NCBI GenBank assembly: GCA_000372185.1
Contig: AQUA01000008.1
Location: 1-64,000, forward strand
Direction of reading: 5' to 3'
Length of the DNA stretch: 64,000 nt
Source: an actinobacterium SCGC AAA278-O22
Lineage (GTDB): Bacteria; Actinomycetota; Actinomycetes; Nanopelagicales; Nanopelagicaceae
The notes under the pieces are model-generated. The model did no database searches, was not told the origin of the DNA, and saw only the letters and a list, made by a program, of their open reading frames with translations. Shown here piece after piece: positions 18,060 through 24,103 of the stretch. The position numbers and the translations under genes were made by a program. The first letter of the stretch is position 1. Each line of letters starts with the position of its first letter.

Positions 18060-19148
18060 GTGAAAAATTCACCTTTGCATCAGAAGCACATCGATCTACA
18101 AGCGAAGATGGCCGATTTCGGTGGCTGGTTGATGCCTATCGAATATCCCGGAGCCGGAGTTCTCGCCGAACATGCGGCAGTTCGTGAACGTGTCGGTCTC
18201 TTCGATGTTTCTCACCTTGGAAAGGCGAGTGTGAAGGGGGAAGGTGCTCTCGAGTTCCTCAACGCAATGTTTACCAACGATCTCACTCGCATTGGCGATA
18301 GCAAGGCGCAGTACACACTCCTGTGTAATCCTGATGGTGGAGTTGTAGACGATCTAATTGCATATCGAAATTCAGCATCTGATTTCTTTCTTATTCCCAA
18401 TGCTGCCAACACAACAGACGTCGTTCGAGTTCTCAATGAAAACGTTCCTGCCGGAATAACAATCACCAATCTCCACGAAAGTTTTGCAGTGCTGGCACTA
18501 CAAGGCCCCCATGCAGTTGATGTCATTAAGAGTTTTGGAATTAATCCCACTATGGATTACATGGCATTTTCACATGTCGCTATTGCGGGTTGCGATGTCA
18601 TTCTTTGTCGTACTGGTTATACCGGCGAACATGGATTTGAGTTAGTGCCTCACTGGGGTGATGCAGACAAGGTGTGGGATGCACTGGTTGATGCGATGAA
18701 GCCTTACTCAGGTTTGATCTGTGGACTTGGCGCGCGTGACACCCTTCGAACCGAAATGGGTTATCCACTCCATGGCCACGAACTCTCACTTGAGATAACT
18801 CCTGTACAAGCCAGTGCAGGGTGGGCGATTGGATGGAAGAAGGAATCTTTCAGAGGTTCAGAACATCTGCGTGCACAGCGCGAGAGTGGCACAGTGCGCA
18901 CGCTTAAAGCGCTGAAATCCAATGATCGTGGAATTCCTCGCGCCGGAATGCTGGTCAAAAATTCAAAAGGTGGCGAAATTGGAATCGTTACGAGTGGAAC
19001 TTTCTCACCGTCTTTGAAAGTTGGAATTGCATTGGCACTGATTGATCCACATTATGAAGTCGGATCTACTGTGACAATTGATATTCGCGGACGCGAGTCT
19101 TCGGCCACAATAAGTGCGCTACCGCTTATGCCTTCACACGTTCGATAA
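18060..19148 (+). CDS. gcvT: Aminomethyltransferase (glycine cleavage T protein)
   Basis: Transfers the methylene group from aminomethyl-lipoyl GcvH to tetrahydrofolate. The 362-aa protein begins SPLHQKHIDLQAKMADFGGWLMPI, typical of GcvT, with the conserved DVSHLGK and the folate-site segment LQGPHAVDVI. The GARDTLRTEMGYPLHGHEL stretch carries the conserved RxExG motif. gcvH and gcvP are not in the window. Its 3' end overlaps the convergent ECF S-component gene by 23 bp. Confidence 0.95.
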   Translation: MKNSPLHQKHIDLQAKMADFGGWLMPIEYPGAGVLAEHAAVRERVGLFDVSHLGKASVKGEGALEFLNAMFTNDLTRIGDSKAQYTLLCNPDGGVVDDLIAYRNSASDFFLIPNAANTTDVVRVLNENVPAGITITNLHESFAVLALQGPHAVDVIKSFGINPTMDYMAFSHVAIAGCDVILCRTGYTGEHGFELVPHWGDADKVWDALVDAMKPYSGLICGLGARDTLRTEMGYPLHGHELSLEITPVQASAGWAIGWKKESFRGSEHLRAQRESGTVRTLKALKSNDRGIPRAGMLVKNSKGGEIGIVTSGTFSPSLKVGIALALIDPHYEVGSTVTIDIRGRESSATISALPLMPSHVR

Positions 19149-19920
19149 ATTCAATCGGCGTCATAAAAGCTGCACGCGTGTGTGCTCGACGCAAAGTATG
19201 TAAGACAGGCTTTGCAGTTAAGAGAATGAGTGAAGTTGTAAAAATTGCTCGAGGAATATCCCACGCCATGGATGATAAGAAATGGTAAGAAATGAAGTGG
19301 GAGAAATTTTCACCGAGAGGAGCACCAGCGCGATACGAAAGCTGGGTATCTGCGCCCAGAGTCCACGGCCAAAATTGGAGATCCATCACAATCCCAAAAA
19401 ATTCTGCCGCGATAATCCCGTAGCAAGCGAGTGCGGCAATTTCCATCTTTCCCTTTACCTTCTTCGGAATGATGGCAACACCTAGTCCTATCCAACCTGC
19501 TGCAAATGATTGATAAGCAACCCAGGGTCCCAATCCACCAGTAAGGATGGCTGAAAGAAACATTGAGATAGTTCCAAGGAGAAAGCCAAAAGATGCACCG
19601 AAAACACGAGCTGCAAGTATGAGAACAAACCACATAGGTTCGATGCCGACTGCTCCAGTTCCCATCGGCCTGAGAGCAGCAATGAGTGCTGAGAGAACGG
19701 CTAGCAATGCCACTGACTTACTGTCCAGACTCTTATTGCTCACGCTGATGAGAAGCAAAAGTACCGCGAATGGAGTTGCCAGGAGAAAGATCCATTGGGG
19801 ATGGCCTTGATTTTCAGAGATAAAGAATGGCCACAGAAATCCGATGGCGCTCACAGTGCTCGTCGCAACTAGCGCGAAAAGTGAAGCACCTTTAAATCTA
19901 ACAATGTCCGCAGTTTTCAT
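19126..19920 (-). CDS. ECF transporter S component, predicted cobalamin-specific (CbrT-like)
   Basis: Substrate-binding membrane subunit of an energy-coupling-factor transporter. The 264-aa protein has about six to seven hydrophobic helices, longer than most S components because of an extra N-terminal helix pair. It overlaps the ATPase gene by 4 bp and is the last gene of a four-gene operon (SCO2322-like, T, A, S). Specificity for cobalamin or a corrinoid precursor is inferred from the riboswitch that leads the operon, not from binding-site residues. Conserved internal stretches include LRPMGTGAVGIEPMWFVLILAARVFG. The gene converges on gcvT with an overlap of 23 bp. Confidence 0.8.
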   Translation of the reverse strand: MKTADIVRFKGASLFALVATSTVSAIGFLWPFFISENQGHPQWIFLLATPFAVLLLLISVSNKSLDSKSVALLAVLSALIAALRPMGTGAVGIEPMWFVLILAARVFGASFGFLLGTISMFLSAILTGGLGPWVAYQSFAAGWIGLGVAIIPKKVKGKMEIAALACYGIIAAEFFGIVMDLQFWPWTLGADTQLSYRAGAPLGENFSHFISYHFLSSMAWDIPRAIFTTSLILLTAKPVLHTLRRAHTRAAFMTPIEFIERVKA

Positions 19921-21521: not shown

Positions 21522-22261
21522 CGCGTCACCATCACAAGTGAGAGCGCAAGAGCGAAAAAGACAATCGTGTTATCACGCATCAACCATGGTTGAGGCCTAT
21601 ACCGCGAACGCTTACGGCTGATTCCATATCCACGAGCATCCATCGCTGCAGCTAATTGAAGCGAACGCGAGAGAGATTCTTCGAGGAGAGGGATTGCAAT
21701 CGAACGTAATCCAGCGTTTTCAATGCCACGCAATTTCTGTGCGGTGCGAATACGACGAGCGCTCGTTGCTAGTTGCGGGAATAACGATGTGGCAATTACT
21801 AAAGTGACCCCAATTTCATACATGAATGAAGGTGTTACTCGCAACAATTTGTGTGGACTTGTCAGTGATGTTGCAGCTCCAAAGAGTGCAATCATTGTTG
21901 CGATGATGACACCTTCATGAAGAGAAGAAGTGAGTCGCTCTAATGTGACTGCACCTCCTACTCGGATTCCAGGCATCCATGAGGGCAAGTCCAAGAGTGG
22001 AATCCGGAATAGAACTGTGCCTGGAATGGGTACACCAATGAGAATCCCAACGATGGTACGGATTGCCATGATGGTGGCACCGATACGAAGTGAGAGCGAG
22101 AAACTTCTGTTCCAAGGAGATCCATCACGGCGAATGTAGACGAGAATTGCCACCGCACCCACGATTGCAAGTGCAACCAAGGCGTTATCGAGTGCAACTA
22201 CTCCTATGGCTAGGAGAATTGCACTTACCCACAATGTGAGTGGGTGCAGTGACTTCTTCAT
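21518..22261 (-). CDS. ECF transporter transmembrane T component (CbiQ/EcfT family)
   Basis: A 247-aa protein with five or so hydrophobic helices and a coupling helix carrying the A-x-R-G motif in AAAMDARGYG, which docks on the ATPase. A second Ala-Arg-Gly-like motif lies before it (RTAQKLRGIEN). It begins 10 nt after the SCO2322-like stop. The family scaffold links the ATPase to the S component in the inner membrane. Confidence 0.9.
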   Translation of the reverse strand: MKKSLHPLTLWVSAILLAIGVVALDNALVALAIVGAVAILVYIRRDGSPWNRSFSLSLRIGATIMAIRTIVGILIGVPIPGTVLFRIPLLDLPSWMPGIRVGGAVTLERLTSSLHEGVIIATMIALFGAATSLTSPHKLLRVTPSFMYEIGVTLVIATSLFPQLATSARRIRTAQKLRGIENAGLRSIAIPLLEESLSRSLQLAAAMDARGYGISRKRSRYRPQPWLMRDNTIVFFALALSLVMVTR

Positions 22262-22271
22262 CTGATGAGTG

Positions 22272-22808
22272 TTATTTCTTGAGAAGTGCTGCCGGAGTCT
22301 CGATTTCTACTCCACATTCCTTCTTGGGGAATCCATTGAATCCACAGATGAGACCTGAACTTGCAGAGCGCACCTTTACAACTTGAGCAAGCACATCAAT
22401 TCCTTGTGAACTTTTCGCAGTTGTAACGCAGCGAACAATCGACTTTGGGACTTTCTCACCTTTGGGTGCATAAGCAGGATTGCCGAATTCAACTACGAGA
22501 GCGATTCGCTTGGTATCTGGATCAGCCTTAGTCTTGCCGCAGATTGCGTTAAATGAAGGCTTGGTCTTTGGTGGATTTGATGGAACATCATCGCTACTAA
22601 ATACAAAAGACCATCCTTCGACAGCGCCATCTTCGATATCGACTGTAGGACCTGTCATCGCAGCTTTCCATGTTGATGCACCTGGTGCAGTTTGGAAATA
22701 TCCCCAGTAGCGCCATCCTTTAGTTGCGGCATGCGATGTTGGCGCTGTGAAGATTTGGGATGTGATCAGAAGAAGCGCTAGCGCTAACTTGGAAGTTGTT
22801 GTCTTCAA
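22272..22808 (-). CDS. SCO2322-family secreted protein linked to B12 ECF transport
   Basis: The start is a TTG at 22806-22808 with AGGAG eight bases upstream; the longer version lacks this. The 178-aa product has a signal peptide (LALALLLITSQIFTAPTSHAA). The mature part has the family pattern: KGWRYWGYFQTAPG, a central FNAICGKTKADPDTKRIALVVEFG and a cysteine-bearing C-terminus CGFNGFPKKECG, probably two disulfides. The protein is exported and probably extracytoplasmic; its role is unknown. It leads the ECF operon under the cobalamin riboswitch, so a job in capture or delivery of corrinoids is a reasonable inference. The C-terminus has no cell-wall anchor. Confidence 0.8.
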   Translation of the reverse strand: MKTTTSKLALALLLITSQIFTAPTSHAATKGWRYWGYFQTAPGASTWKAAMTGPTVDIEDGAVEGWSFVFSSDDVPSNPPKTKPSFNAICGKTKADPDTKRIALVVEFGNPAYAPKGEKVPKSIVRCVTTAKSSQGIDVLAQVVKVRSASSGLICGFNGFPKKECGVEIETPAALLKK

Positions 22809-22811
22809 AGT

Positions 22812-22838
22812 GTGAACTCCTAAAAAGAAGAGTCTCAC
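22812..22838 (-). promoter_or_regulatory. Hairpin covering the Shine-Dalgarno of the B12-ECF operon
   Basis: On the minus strand 22830-22838 can pair with 22812-22819 (GTGA-ACTC arms with one bulged G). The second arm contains part of the AGGAG ribosome site at 22817-22821. It would serve as a translational switch for the upstream riboswitch. Confidence 0.45.
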
Positions 22839-22857
22839 AGGGGTAGCTCGCGAGCGG

Positions 22858-22916
22858 TCGGCCGAAAGCGGCCAAATACCTTTGGACTACACCCCGCAAA
22901 CCTCGGCGGGTGTTGG
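22858..22916 (-). promoter_or_regulatory. Expression-platform hairpins downstream of the cobalamin aptamer
   Basis: Two GC-rich inverted repeats lie between aptamer and gene: one with arms ACACCCGC and GCGGGGTGT at about 22891-22916, and one of GGCCG/CGGCC type at about 22858-22873. Neither is followed by a U-run, so control is more likely translational than by termination. Confidence 0.4.
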
Positions 22917-22924
22917 TCAAAAAC

Positions 22925-23070
22925 AAATATCCAGGTAGGTAATCCGACTTGAACAGTTCAGGTTCACACTGTCTTACGGTTGCGGGTCAGCGTCGGATTC
23001 GCACCGAACTTCCCCTACTGGGATATCTATGAAGTTGTGGTCGAACCAAACCATAGCCAGATGCTGTTGG
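22925..23070 (-). ncRNA. Cobalamin riboswitch
   Basis: Read on the minus strand the segment has the conserved core in order: GGGGAAGTTCGGTGCGAATCC (GGGAA-n3-GGTG-n-AATCC), then GACGCTGACCCGCAACCGTAA (CCCGCnACnGTnA, the B12 box region), a variable arm, and AGTCGGATTACCTACC (AGTC-GAxxACC). Ends are approximate. The aptamer is about 120-260 nt upstream of the TTG of the SCO2322-like gene and points toward it. It would reduce expression of the ECF operon when adenosylcobalamin is plentiful. It also shares the spacer with the divergent aldo/keto reductase gene. Confidence 0.9.
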
Positions 23071-23089
23071 CAACTCACCACGCGCACTC

Positions 23090-23095
23090 TATGGT
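23090..23095 (+). promoter_or_regulatory. -10 element TATGGT, leaderless start of the aldo/keto reductase
   Basis: TATGGT, a 6-nt spacer and then the ATG at 23102, no Shine-Dalgarno. Confidence 0.5.
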
Positions 23096-23101
23096 GGCGC
23101 T

Positions 23102-24103
23102 ATGGAATATAGACGCCTTGGCAGCACGGGAATGTATGTCTCAGAAATTGCTTATGGAAATTGGATCACCCACGGTTCACAAGTAGAGACCGAGGCTGCA
23201 GTTAAATGTGTGCGTGAAGCGCTCAATCAAGGGATTACGACTTTTGACACGGCTGATGTGTATGCCGGCACAAAGGCCGAAGTTGTCTTAGCAAAAGCGC
23301 TCAAAGGCGTTCGCCGCGAATCCTACGAACTATTCACCAAGGTGTATTGGCCGACAGGACCAGGCAAAAATGATCGAGGTCTTTCACGCAAACACATCAT
23401 GGAGTCTTGCCATGCATCCTTAAAGCGCTTGAAAACAGATCACATTGATCTCTATCAGGCACATCGATTTGACTTCGAAACTCCGCTTGAAGAAACTCTC
23501 AGCGCCTTTGATGATCTGATTCGTCAAGGCAAGGTCAGTTACATTGGATTCTCTGAGTGGAATGCAAAACAGATATCTGATGCACTTAAAATTCAAGATG
23601 CTCGTGGTTACAATCGATTTGTTTCAAGCCAACCTCAATATTCCGCGTTGTGGCGAGTGATCGAAGCCGAAGTTGTTCCACTGTCACAGAAGGAAGGCAT
23701 TGGCCAGATTGTCTGGTCTCCGATGGCTCAAGGAGTACTCACCGGAAAGTATCTTCCAGGAAAGAAGGCTCCAGCTGGATCACGCGCAACGGATAAGAAG
23801 AGCGGCGCAGATTTCATTTCGCGCTGGATGAGTGAAGAGGTTTTGACCGCTGTGCAGAAGCTCAAACCCATTGCTGAAGGTCTCGATATTTCGATGTCTC
23901 AACTTGCTCTCGCGTGGGTACTGCAAAACCCCAATGTTTCTTCGGCAATTATGGGAGCTACCAAGCCTTCTCAAGTGAAGGAGAATGTGAAAGCAGCAGG
24001 AATTAAGCTCTCTGCAGATGTCATGAAGGCGATCGATAGCGCGCTCGGCACTCTTCCCGAACGAGATCCGAAGAAGAACGAAAGTCCTAATCCGCGCGCT
24101 TAA
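23102..24103 (+). CDS. Aldo/keto reductase, Kv-beta-like group
   Basis: A 333-aa NADPH-dependent reductase of the AKR (TIM-barrel) superfamily. MEYRRLGSTGMYVSEIAYG is the typical N-terminus; FDTADVYAGTKAEVVLAKAL carries the catalytic aspartate and tyrosine, and YIGFSEWNAKQI is a core barrel strand. The closest group by sequence style is the voltage-gated potassium channel beta-subunit-like reductases of bacteria. Carbonyl substrate unknown. The gene converges on DUF3043 with an 10-bp gap and is divergent from the B12 riboswitch. Confidence 0.9.
   Translation: MEYRRLGSTGMYVSEIAYGNWITHGSQVETEAAVKCVREALNQGITTFDTADVYAGTKAEVVLAKALKGVRRESYELFTKVYWPTGPGKNDRGLSRKHIMESCHASLKRLKTDHIDLYQAHRFDFETPLEETLSAFDDLIRQGKVSYIGFSEWNAKQISDALKIQDARGYNRFVSSQPQYSALWRVIEAEVVPLSQKEGIGQIVWSPMAQGVLTGKYLPGKKAPAGSRATDKKSGADFISRWMSEEVLTAVQKLKPIAEGLDISMSQLALAWVLQNPNVSSAIMGATKPSQVKENVKAAGIKLSADVMKAIDSALGTLPERDPKKNESPNPRA

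Follow-up and report, generated by a model that had tools for sequence, protein, structure and literature searches.

Here, we describe an operon that probably serves cobalamin uptake in a Nanopelagicales (acI) bacterium dependent on B12, together with its proposed partner protein and B12 switch. It lies on the minus strand of the window, by which we mean the whole 64 kb stretch of DNA analysed. Computation identifies the product of its first gene, a member of the SCO2322 family, as a predicted secreted, cysteine-conserving protein consisting of a circularly permuted transcobalamin-type (SLBB/DUF4430) beta-grasp domain. That this lineage has a riboswitch and an ECF cobalamin transporter is already known: cultivated acI strains lack cobalamin synthesis, and a role as cobalamin transporter has been put forward for an acI ECF module behind cobalamin/AdoCbl riboswitches (Kang et al. 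2017, PMC5301498, in excerpts). Those excerpts deal with the lineage, and most likely with the very operon, that we see in the window; they describe the ECF module and the riboswitches and say nothing of the secreted protein at the head of the operon or of its expression platform. New here are the identification of the SCO2322 protein and its travel with a B12 ECF importer. To our knowledge, the SCO2322 family (NF040672) has been named without an assigned function, and no mention of SCO2322 was found in the literature searched.

Features of the operon and of its leader, in window coordinates
Feature	Position	Strand	Basis
AdoCbl riboswitch aptamer RF01482, full length	22882-23041	-	cmscan
P13-type hairpin ACACCCGC-CGAGGUUU-GCGGGGUGU, 3' end of the aptamer	22889-22913	-	in the RF01482 alignment; near-invariant among relatives
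GCUACCCCUGU, predicted alternative partner of the P13 3' arm (22886-22897)	22837-22847	-	duplex energy and minimum-energy folds
Ribosome-site hairpin UGUGAGACUCUU...AGGAGUUCACA	22811-22839	-	-9.4 kcal/mol; kept in 51/51 orthologous leaders
Secreted SCO2322-family protein, 178 aa, TTG start	22272-22808	-	NF040672, 167.5 bits
ECF T component, CbiQ family, 247 aa	21518-22261	-	PF02361, 36.8 bits (cut-off 25)
ECF A-A, two ATPase domains in one chain, 534 aa	19917-21521	-	PF00005, two stretches
ECF S component, 264 aa, presumed corrinoid-specific	19126-19920	-	PF07155, 37.5 bits (cut-off 26.7)

The operon runs from the SCO2322-family secreted protein through a CbiQ-type T component and a fused A-A protein to an S component, with a gap of 10 bases between the SCO2322-type gene and T and overlaps of 4 bases between T and A-A and between A-A and S. 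Its neighbours are a convergent GcvT gene at one end and, upstream, a divergent aldo-keto reductase gene. The parts that define an ECF transporter, namely T, two A domains and S in one operon, are all present over their cut-offs (PF02361, PF00005 twice, PF07155), and the A-A protein scores 314 and 311 bits against TIGR04521 and TIGR04520, slightly under the cut-offs of these two families. An orthologue of the S component was found by tblastn at each of 24 loci tested (E 1e-32 or better), and no PDB sequence matched the S component at E 1, either with the single protein or with a 20-sequence profile. The preliminary description had marked the S component as a cobalamin or corrinoid importer, a reading that our computation supports and that has already been proposed for the lineage (PMC5301498, in excerpts).

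That the system imports cobalt or another B12 precursor instead of cobalamin could be argued from the T component, which belongs to the CbiQ family, and from the Cbi/Nik-type importers that are also reported behind B12 riboswitches (PMC2667541). We consider this very unlikely: the S component matches PF07155 and PF12822 only and not the CbiM family, cobalt alone would be of no help to acI bacteria that lack B12 synthesis (PMC5301498, in excerpts), and the homologues of the secreted protein are transcobalamin-like, one of them being fused to a BtuF-like protein. Even less probable is that the S component carries another vitamin of the riboflavin/folate family, the riboswitch only tying its expression to B12 status. 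The nearest Pfam name of the S component is riboflavin (PF07155), its best curated names being those of ECF riboflavin S components, with weak folate-family matches besides. However, PF07155 and the folate families are broad and the folate matches fall far under cut-off, such a substrate would fit poorly with a transcobalamin-type protein in an operon led by a B12 riboswitch, and the acI analysis in print, as excerpted, names a putative cobalamin transporter (PMC5301498). Cobalamin is the substrate that we prefer. As to enzymes of the host, it encodes a full-length MetH, and one full-length MetH is also found in the genomes of L002, L050 and L058. In the genomes of L042 (G414) and L032 (G417), MetH is split: separate ORFs, lying as far as ~24 kb apart, match the N-terminal, the middle and the later portions of the model.

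The arrangement of the locus was followed through the species genomes of GTDB, where a scan yielded 60 relatives of the SCO2322 protein, 58 of them of the Nanopelagicales type. The T gene lies directly 3' in 56 of these 58 loci, the contigs of the remaining two ending first; A-A and S come next wherever the contigs continue, and the wider neighbourhood is mostly the same. Gene order is fixed across the Nanopelagicales. Two loci that share the order of the window, L002 and L042, come from IMCC25003 and IMCC19121, which we take to be two of the four strains of the Kang study. When NF040672 was searched phylum-wide, 22 genomes including the host exceeded the cut-off, with weak partial matches besides, and the T gene adjoins in 29/29 non-host loci retrieved from this search (L062-L090). 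The preliminary description had made the co-occurrence of SCO2322-type proteins with B12 ECF genes one test of its proposal, and both counts bear that co-occurrence out.

Two relatives, L060 and L061, have no T gene beside them. L060:4127-4804 (+), from a Propionibacterium MAG, encodes a C-terminally anchored SCO2322 protein next to osmoprotectant-ABC-importer-like genes; no T component is found within its short remaining contig, which makes it an exception to the ECF linkage. A C-terminal membrane anchor, as in the presumed Streptomyces proteins, was seen in only one Nanopelagicales-type relative (L057:5082-5651), and the SCO2322 protein of the window has none.

How the SCO2322 protein relates to the transcobalamins became apparent from profiles. 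Searched singly against families and the PDB, the protein returned nothing beyond NF040672, which it matches over positions 2-144 of 144 (cut-off 85 bits). The weak partial matches to NF040672 carry both halves of the family in reverse order. We take their order as canonical because they align end to end with DUF4430, as represented by domains gathered from other Actinobacteriota (P 7.9e-8, and 1e-5 with a separately built alignment); 30 column-shuffled controls and one reversed control reached a probability of 0.4% or less against DUF4430. In the window protein, whose mature part spans ~22275-22727 (-), the N-half (22518-22727) is the counterpart of the canonical domain's C-terminal half and the C-half (22302-22514) that of its N-terminal half. 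When the SCO2322 profile was rotated, so that the C-half precedes the N-half, hhalign matched it to the canonical-order relatives at P 2.4e-33 over 123 columns, compared with 1.8e-19 and 1.5e-16 for the halves alone. That the rotated profile beats either half indicates that the SCO2322 and canonical-order sets are circular permutants of each other.

The rotated profile also aligns with DUF4430 (P 8.8e-7, 91 columns), as does the C-half alone (P 1.5e-6). Transcobalamins have DUF4430 as their C-terminal domain (PMC4350170), and with a DUF4430 profile transcobalamin-1 was retrieved from the PDB at E 0.013; the canonical-order relatives, searched against the PDB as a profile, returned chance-level matches only. 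At the gathering score, PF14478 matched neither the window protein nor five canonical-order relatives, and we therefore describe the protein as a DUF4430 homologue and do not file it as a member of PF14478. How such a permutation could arise is suggested by a 782-aa protein (L105:134-2482 (+)), in which a toroid-like N-terminus is accompanied by two canonical-order beta domains in tandem and by CWB2 cell-wall-binding repeats: tandem domains of this kind would offer a route to circular permutation.

The AlphaFold2 model of the SCO2322-type protein, built on an alignment of 52 sequences, is confident, with a pLDDT of 86.8 and a pTM of 0.83. Foldseek found no significant PDB match with this model. 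VIA-align reached Z >= 2 for 3 of the 42 chains compared, two of the three being bovine transcobalamin, with weak scores of 2.5 (2bb6_A) and 2.4 (2v3n) over the C-half only; residues 69-141 of the model superimpose on transcobalamin residues 313-379 with an rmsd of 2.6 over 59 residues (2bb6_A). Under the permutation, the C-half would be expected to lie on the initial part of the beta domain, as it does here, and we give this little weight alone. The fold match is confined to half a domain because the model of the unpermuted L061 domain was unusable (pLDDT 45).

In other lineages the domain keeps company that is reminiscent of transcobalamin. SCO2321_fam lies directly upstream of the SCO2322-type gene in all eight genomes of one large-genome family, presumably Streptomyces, these being the genomes with matches over cut-off in both the SCO2322 and the SCO2321 family searches. 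SCO2321_fam (NF053823) matches alpha/alpha toroids of the squalene-hopene cyclase type, and the alpha/alpha toroid is the fold of transcobalamin's other half. No toroid gene was found in the host assembly, which is 75% complete, or in five related genomes, and G060, a genome outside the Nanopelagicales, has SCO2322 and a T component without a toroid gene. The beta domain appears to work without the toroid in Nanopelagicales.

Of the 13 canonical-order loci scanned, 7 have a cobalamin riboswitch directly upstream (L103, L104, L106, L109, L154, L155 and L156), and the operon of L154 runs in the order riboswitch, DUF4430, toroid, canonical-order relative, T and A-A. Among SCO2322-order loci outside the Nanopelagicales, an Rfam riboswitch was found in 1 of 10 scanned, and this one is marginal (31.6 vs 31.5). 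Fusion is seen in a Chloroflexota MAG, where L061:4536-6050 joins a canonical-order SCO2322-related domain to the N-terminus of a BtuF-like protein (PF01497, 3e-27); the gene sits between those of an FecCD permease and an ATPase, in a BtuCD-type operon. Some other actinobacterial genomes (L153, L155 and L156) contain an additional ECF locus in which canonical-order beta domains occur, two of them in L156 and two divergent ones in L155, and which has cobalamin riboswitches in or beside it.

In ECF importers, the membrane S component is normally the sole substrate-binding part. We argue that the SCO2322-type protein most likely binds or caps the corrinoid outside the membrane and then hands it to S, so that a free-standing beta domain would perform the task for which animal transcobalamin employs an alpha toroid and a beta domain together. 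Its role as a predicted extracytoplasmic B12 partner, put forward in the preliminary description, is well supported by the aptamer match, the linkage to the T gene and the homology to the transcobalamin beta domain; the identity of the ligand and its delivery to the S component are what we infer from these. Transcobalamin holds B12 with both domains, its toroid half forming the main cavity. Since both domains are used there and the toroid was not found here, it is uncertain whether the beta domain could bind a corrinoid by itself. The wider proposal, that SCO2322 proteins are permuted, free-standing intrinsic-factor-type beta domains acting as soluble corrinoid receptors for ECF importers, with the SCO2321 toroid optional and lost in acI, seems to us evenly balanced.

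It is conceivable, though unlikely, that SCO2322 serves the ECF complex as a structural or assembly factor or binds a non-corrinoid ligand, the beta-grasp being a mere scaffold. SLBB domains do bind diverse ligands (PMC1796856), and the Nanopelagicales genomes searched yielded no toroid, the part of transcobalamin that makes up its main B12 cavity. Against this, cobalamin riboswitches, the toroid gene and the BtuF fusion recur with the domain in separate lineages.

The cobalamin aptamer that had been proposed on the minus strand was checked with Infernal. In a cmscan of the full 64 kb window, RF01482 (AdoCbl) was the sole RNA family match, scoring 56.3 bits against a gathering score of 50 (E 1.2e-7, whole model 1-149 aligned; E 1.5e-8 when the local stretch alone was scanned), and no second RF01482 match was found in the 1.14 Mb host assembly. 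The family assignment suggests that adenosylcobalamin would be its ligand. Rfam scans of the Nanopelagicales loci placed a cobalamin-clan aptamer above gathering score just 5' of the operon in 23 of 28, with RF01482 in most, RF01689 in some and RF00174 in one, and a motif search found the aptamer core at every Nanopelagicales-type locus with sufficient upstream sequence. When the orthologous leaders of L029, L032, L042, L028 and L056 are set beside that of the window, some match AdoCbl-II (RF01689) and others RF01482; despite this split the expression platform is much alike among L029, L032, L042 and L028, and that of L056 differs. It seems that the periphery of the aptamer changes while the expression platform stays fixed.

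Between the aptamer and the first gene, UGUGAGACUCUUCUUUUUAGGAGUUCACA folds into an 11-pair hairpin whose 3' arm holds the Shine-Dalgarno sequence AGGAG (22817-22821), as the preliminary description had suspected with a hairpin at 22812-22838. Over 51 leaders it has a mean energy of -8.6 kcal/mol and a mean z of -2.0 against dinucleotide shuffles; being kept in every one of them, the hairpin is not due to chance. The leaders fall into two hairpin subtypes, in which the sequestered site is AGGAG or GAGAGG. The TTG proposed as start codon (22806-22808) agrees with the relatives, which have ATG or GTG at the same position. A GTG at 22838, which would give a longer ORF, was ruled out because it lies inside the hairpin and because the relatives begin at the TTG position.

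How the aptamer could act on this hairpin is suggested by its P13 3' arm, which we propose as the switching strand. The arm (GCGGGGUGU) is able to pair instead with CUACCCCUGU, which extends into the ribosome-site hairpin, and its predicted partner in the table shares the outer base pairs of that hairpin. The anti-sequester duplex has an energy of -15.9 kcal/mol in the window and of -17.2 kcal/mol on average over 51 leaders, compared with -12.0 for shuffled partners, and the pairing appears in minimum-energy folds. In predicted ensembles, the alternative and sequestered states lie within ~1.4 kcal/mol of each other and the ribosome site is freer in the alternative state in 21 of 27 leaders, the mean unpaired fraction of the Shine-Dalgarno being 0.15 as against 0.06, so that it is mostly paired in both. 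Coevolution of the partners is weak (-17.17 for own partners vs -16.87, sd 0.19, for partners swapped between species); swapping costs little, and we make no claim of covariation. Sequestration of the Shine-Dalgarno is well supported and the competing anti-sequester only modestly so. We treat the exact switch as a model because its overlap with the hairpin is short, ~3 bases, and because partners can be swapped cheaply between species.

In this model, plentiful adenosylcobalamin would bind the aptamer and hold the P13 hairpin, leaving the downstream CUACCCCUGUGAG strand free, so that the hairpin over AGGAG forms and translation of the SCO2322-type gene is blocked; the ECF genes would be repressed too, through the close spacing and the 4-base overlaps. 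Scarcity of B12 would let the P13 3' arm pair with CUACCCCUGU and loosen the ribosome-site hairpin, and the operon would be translated. Both the direction and the mechanism of switching are what these predicted pairings would imply. The predicted anti-sequester frees the Shine-Dalgarno only slightly, which would also suit a genuine aptamer that acts chiefly on transcription, by termination or Rho, with the hairpin secondary. We find this quite improbable, given that no intrinsic-terminator-like site was found in 22200-23400 and that the Shine-Dalgarno hairpin persists in all leaders while the rest of the leader varies in places. At the computational level, the translational control that the preliminary description had read from the leader holds.

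Among the closest known systems are the bacterial transcobalamin-type SLBB proteins in CbiO/CbiQ operons, for which B12 scavenging was predicted in non-synthesisers (Burroughs et al. 2007, PMC1796856). As in the window, a secreted beta-grasp protein lies beside ECF genes there, often with an alpha/alpha toroid; those cases come from low-GC Gram-positives, planctomycetes and some archaea and have the canonical order, permutation being unmentioned. The window domain, unlike them, is permuted, free-standing and from the Actinobacteriota, with no toroid detected. In animal transcobalamin, haptocorrin and intrinsic factor (2bb6, 4kki), the C-terminal beta domain is homologous to the SCO2322 domain, and the toroid protein SCO2321 encoded next door in the presumed Streptomyces operons recalls transcobalamin's two halves. 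Unlike in the animal carriers, the SCO2322 order is permuted, the chains are separate, no toroid was found in the host genome, and sequence similarity is low. With ECF-CbrT of Lactobacillus delbrueckii (PMC5997447), the window system has the ECF architecture and the presumed substrate in common; unlike ECF-CbrT, it has a dedicated energising module and a secreted partner, and its S profile matches no solved S component.

We would like to emphasise that these results offer a testable function for SCO2322 and its neighbour SCO2321, which are widespread in Nanopelagicales and presumed Streptomyces, and that they tie actinobacterial proteins to the B12 carriers of animals, a relation that circular permutation conceals from Pfam. 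A further question that they raise is whether an ECF importer can work with an extracytoplasmic receptor for its substrate. The acI bacteria are abundant in freshwater and dominate many lakes, and the proposed partner bears on how these B12-requiring bacteria may gather a vitamin that is present at trace level.
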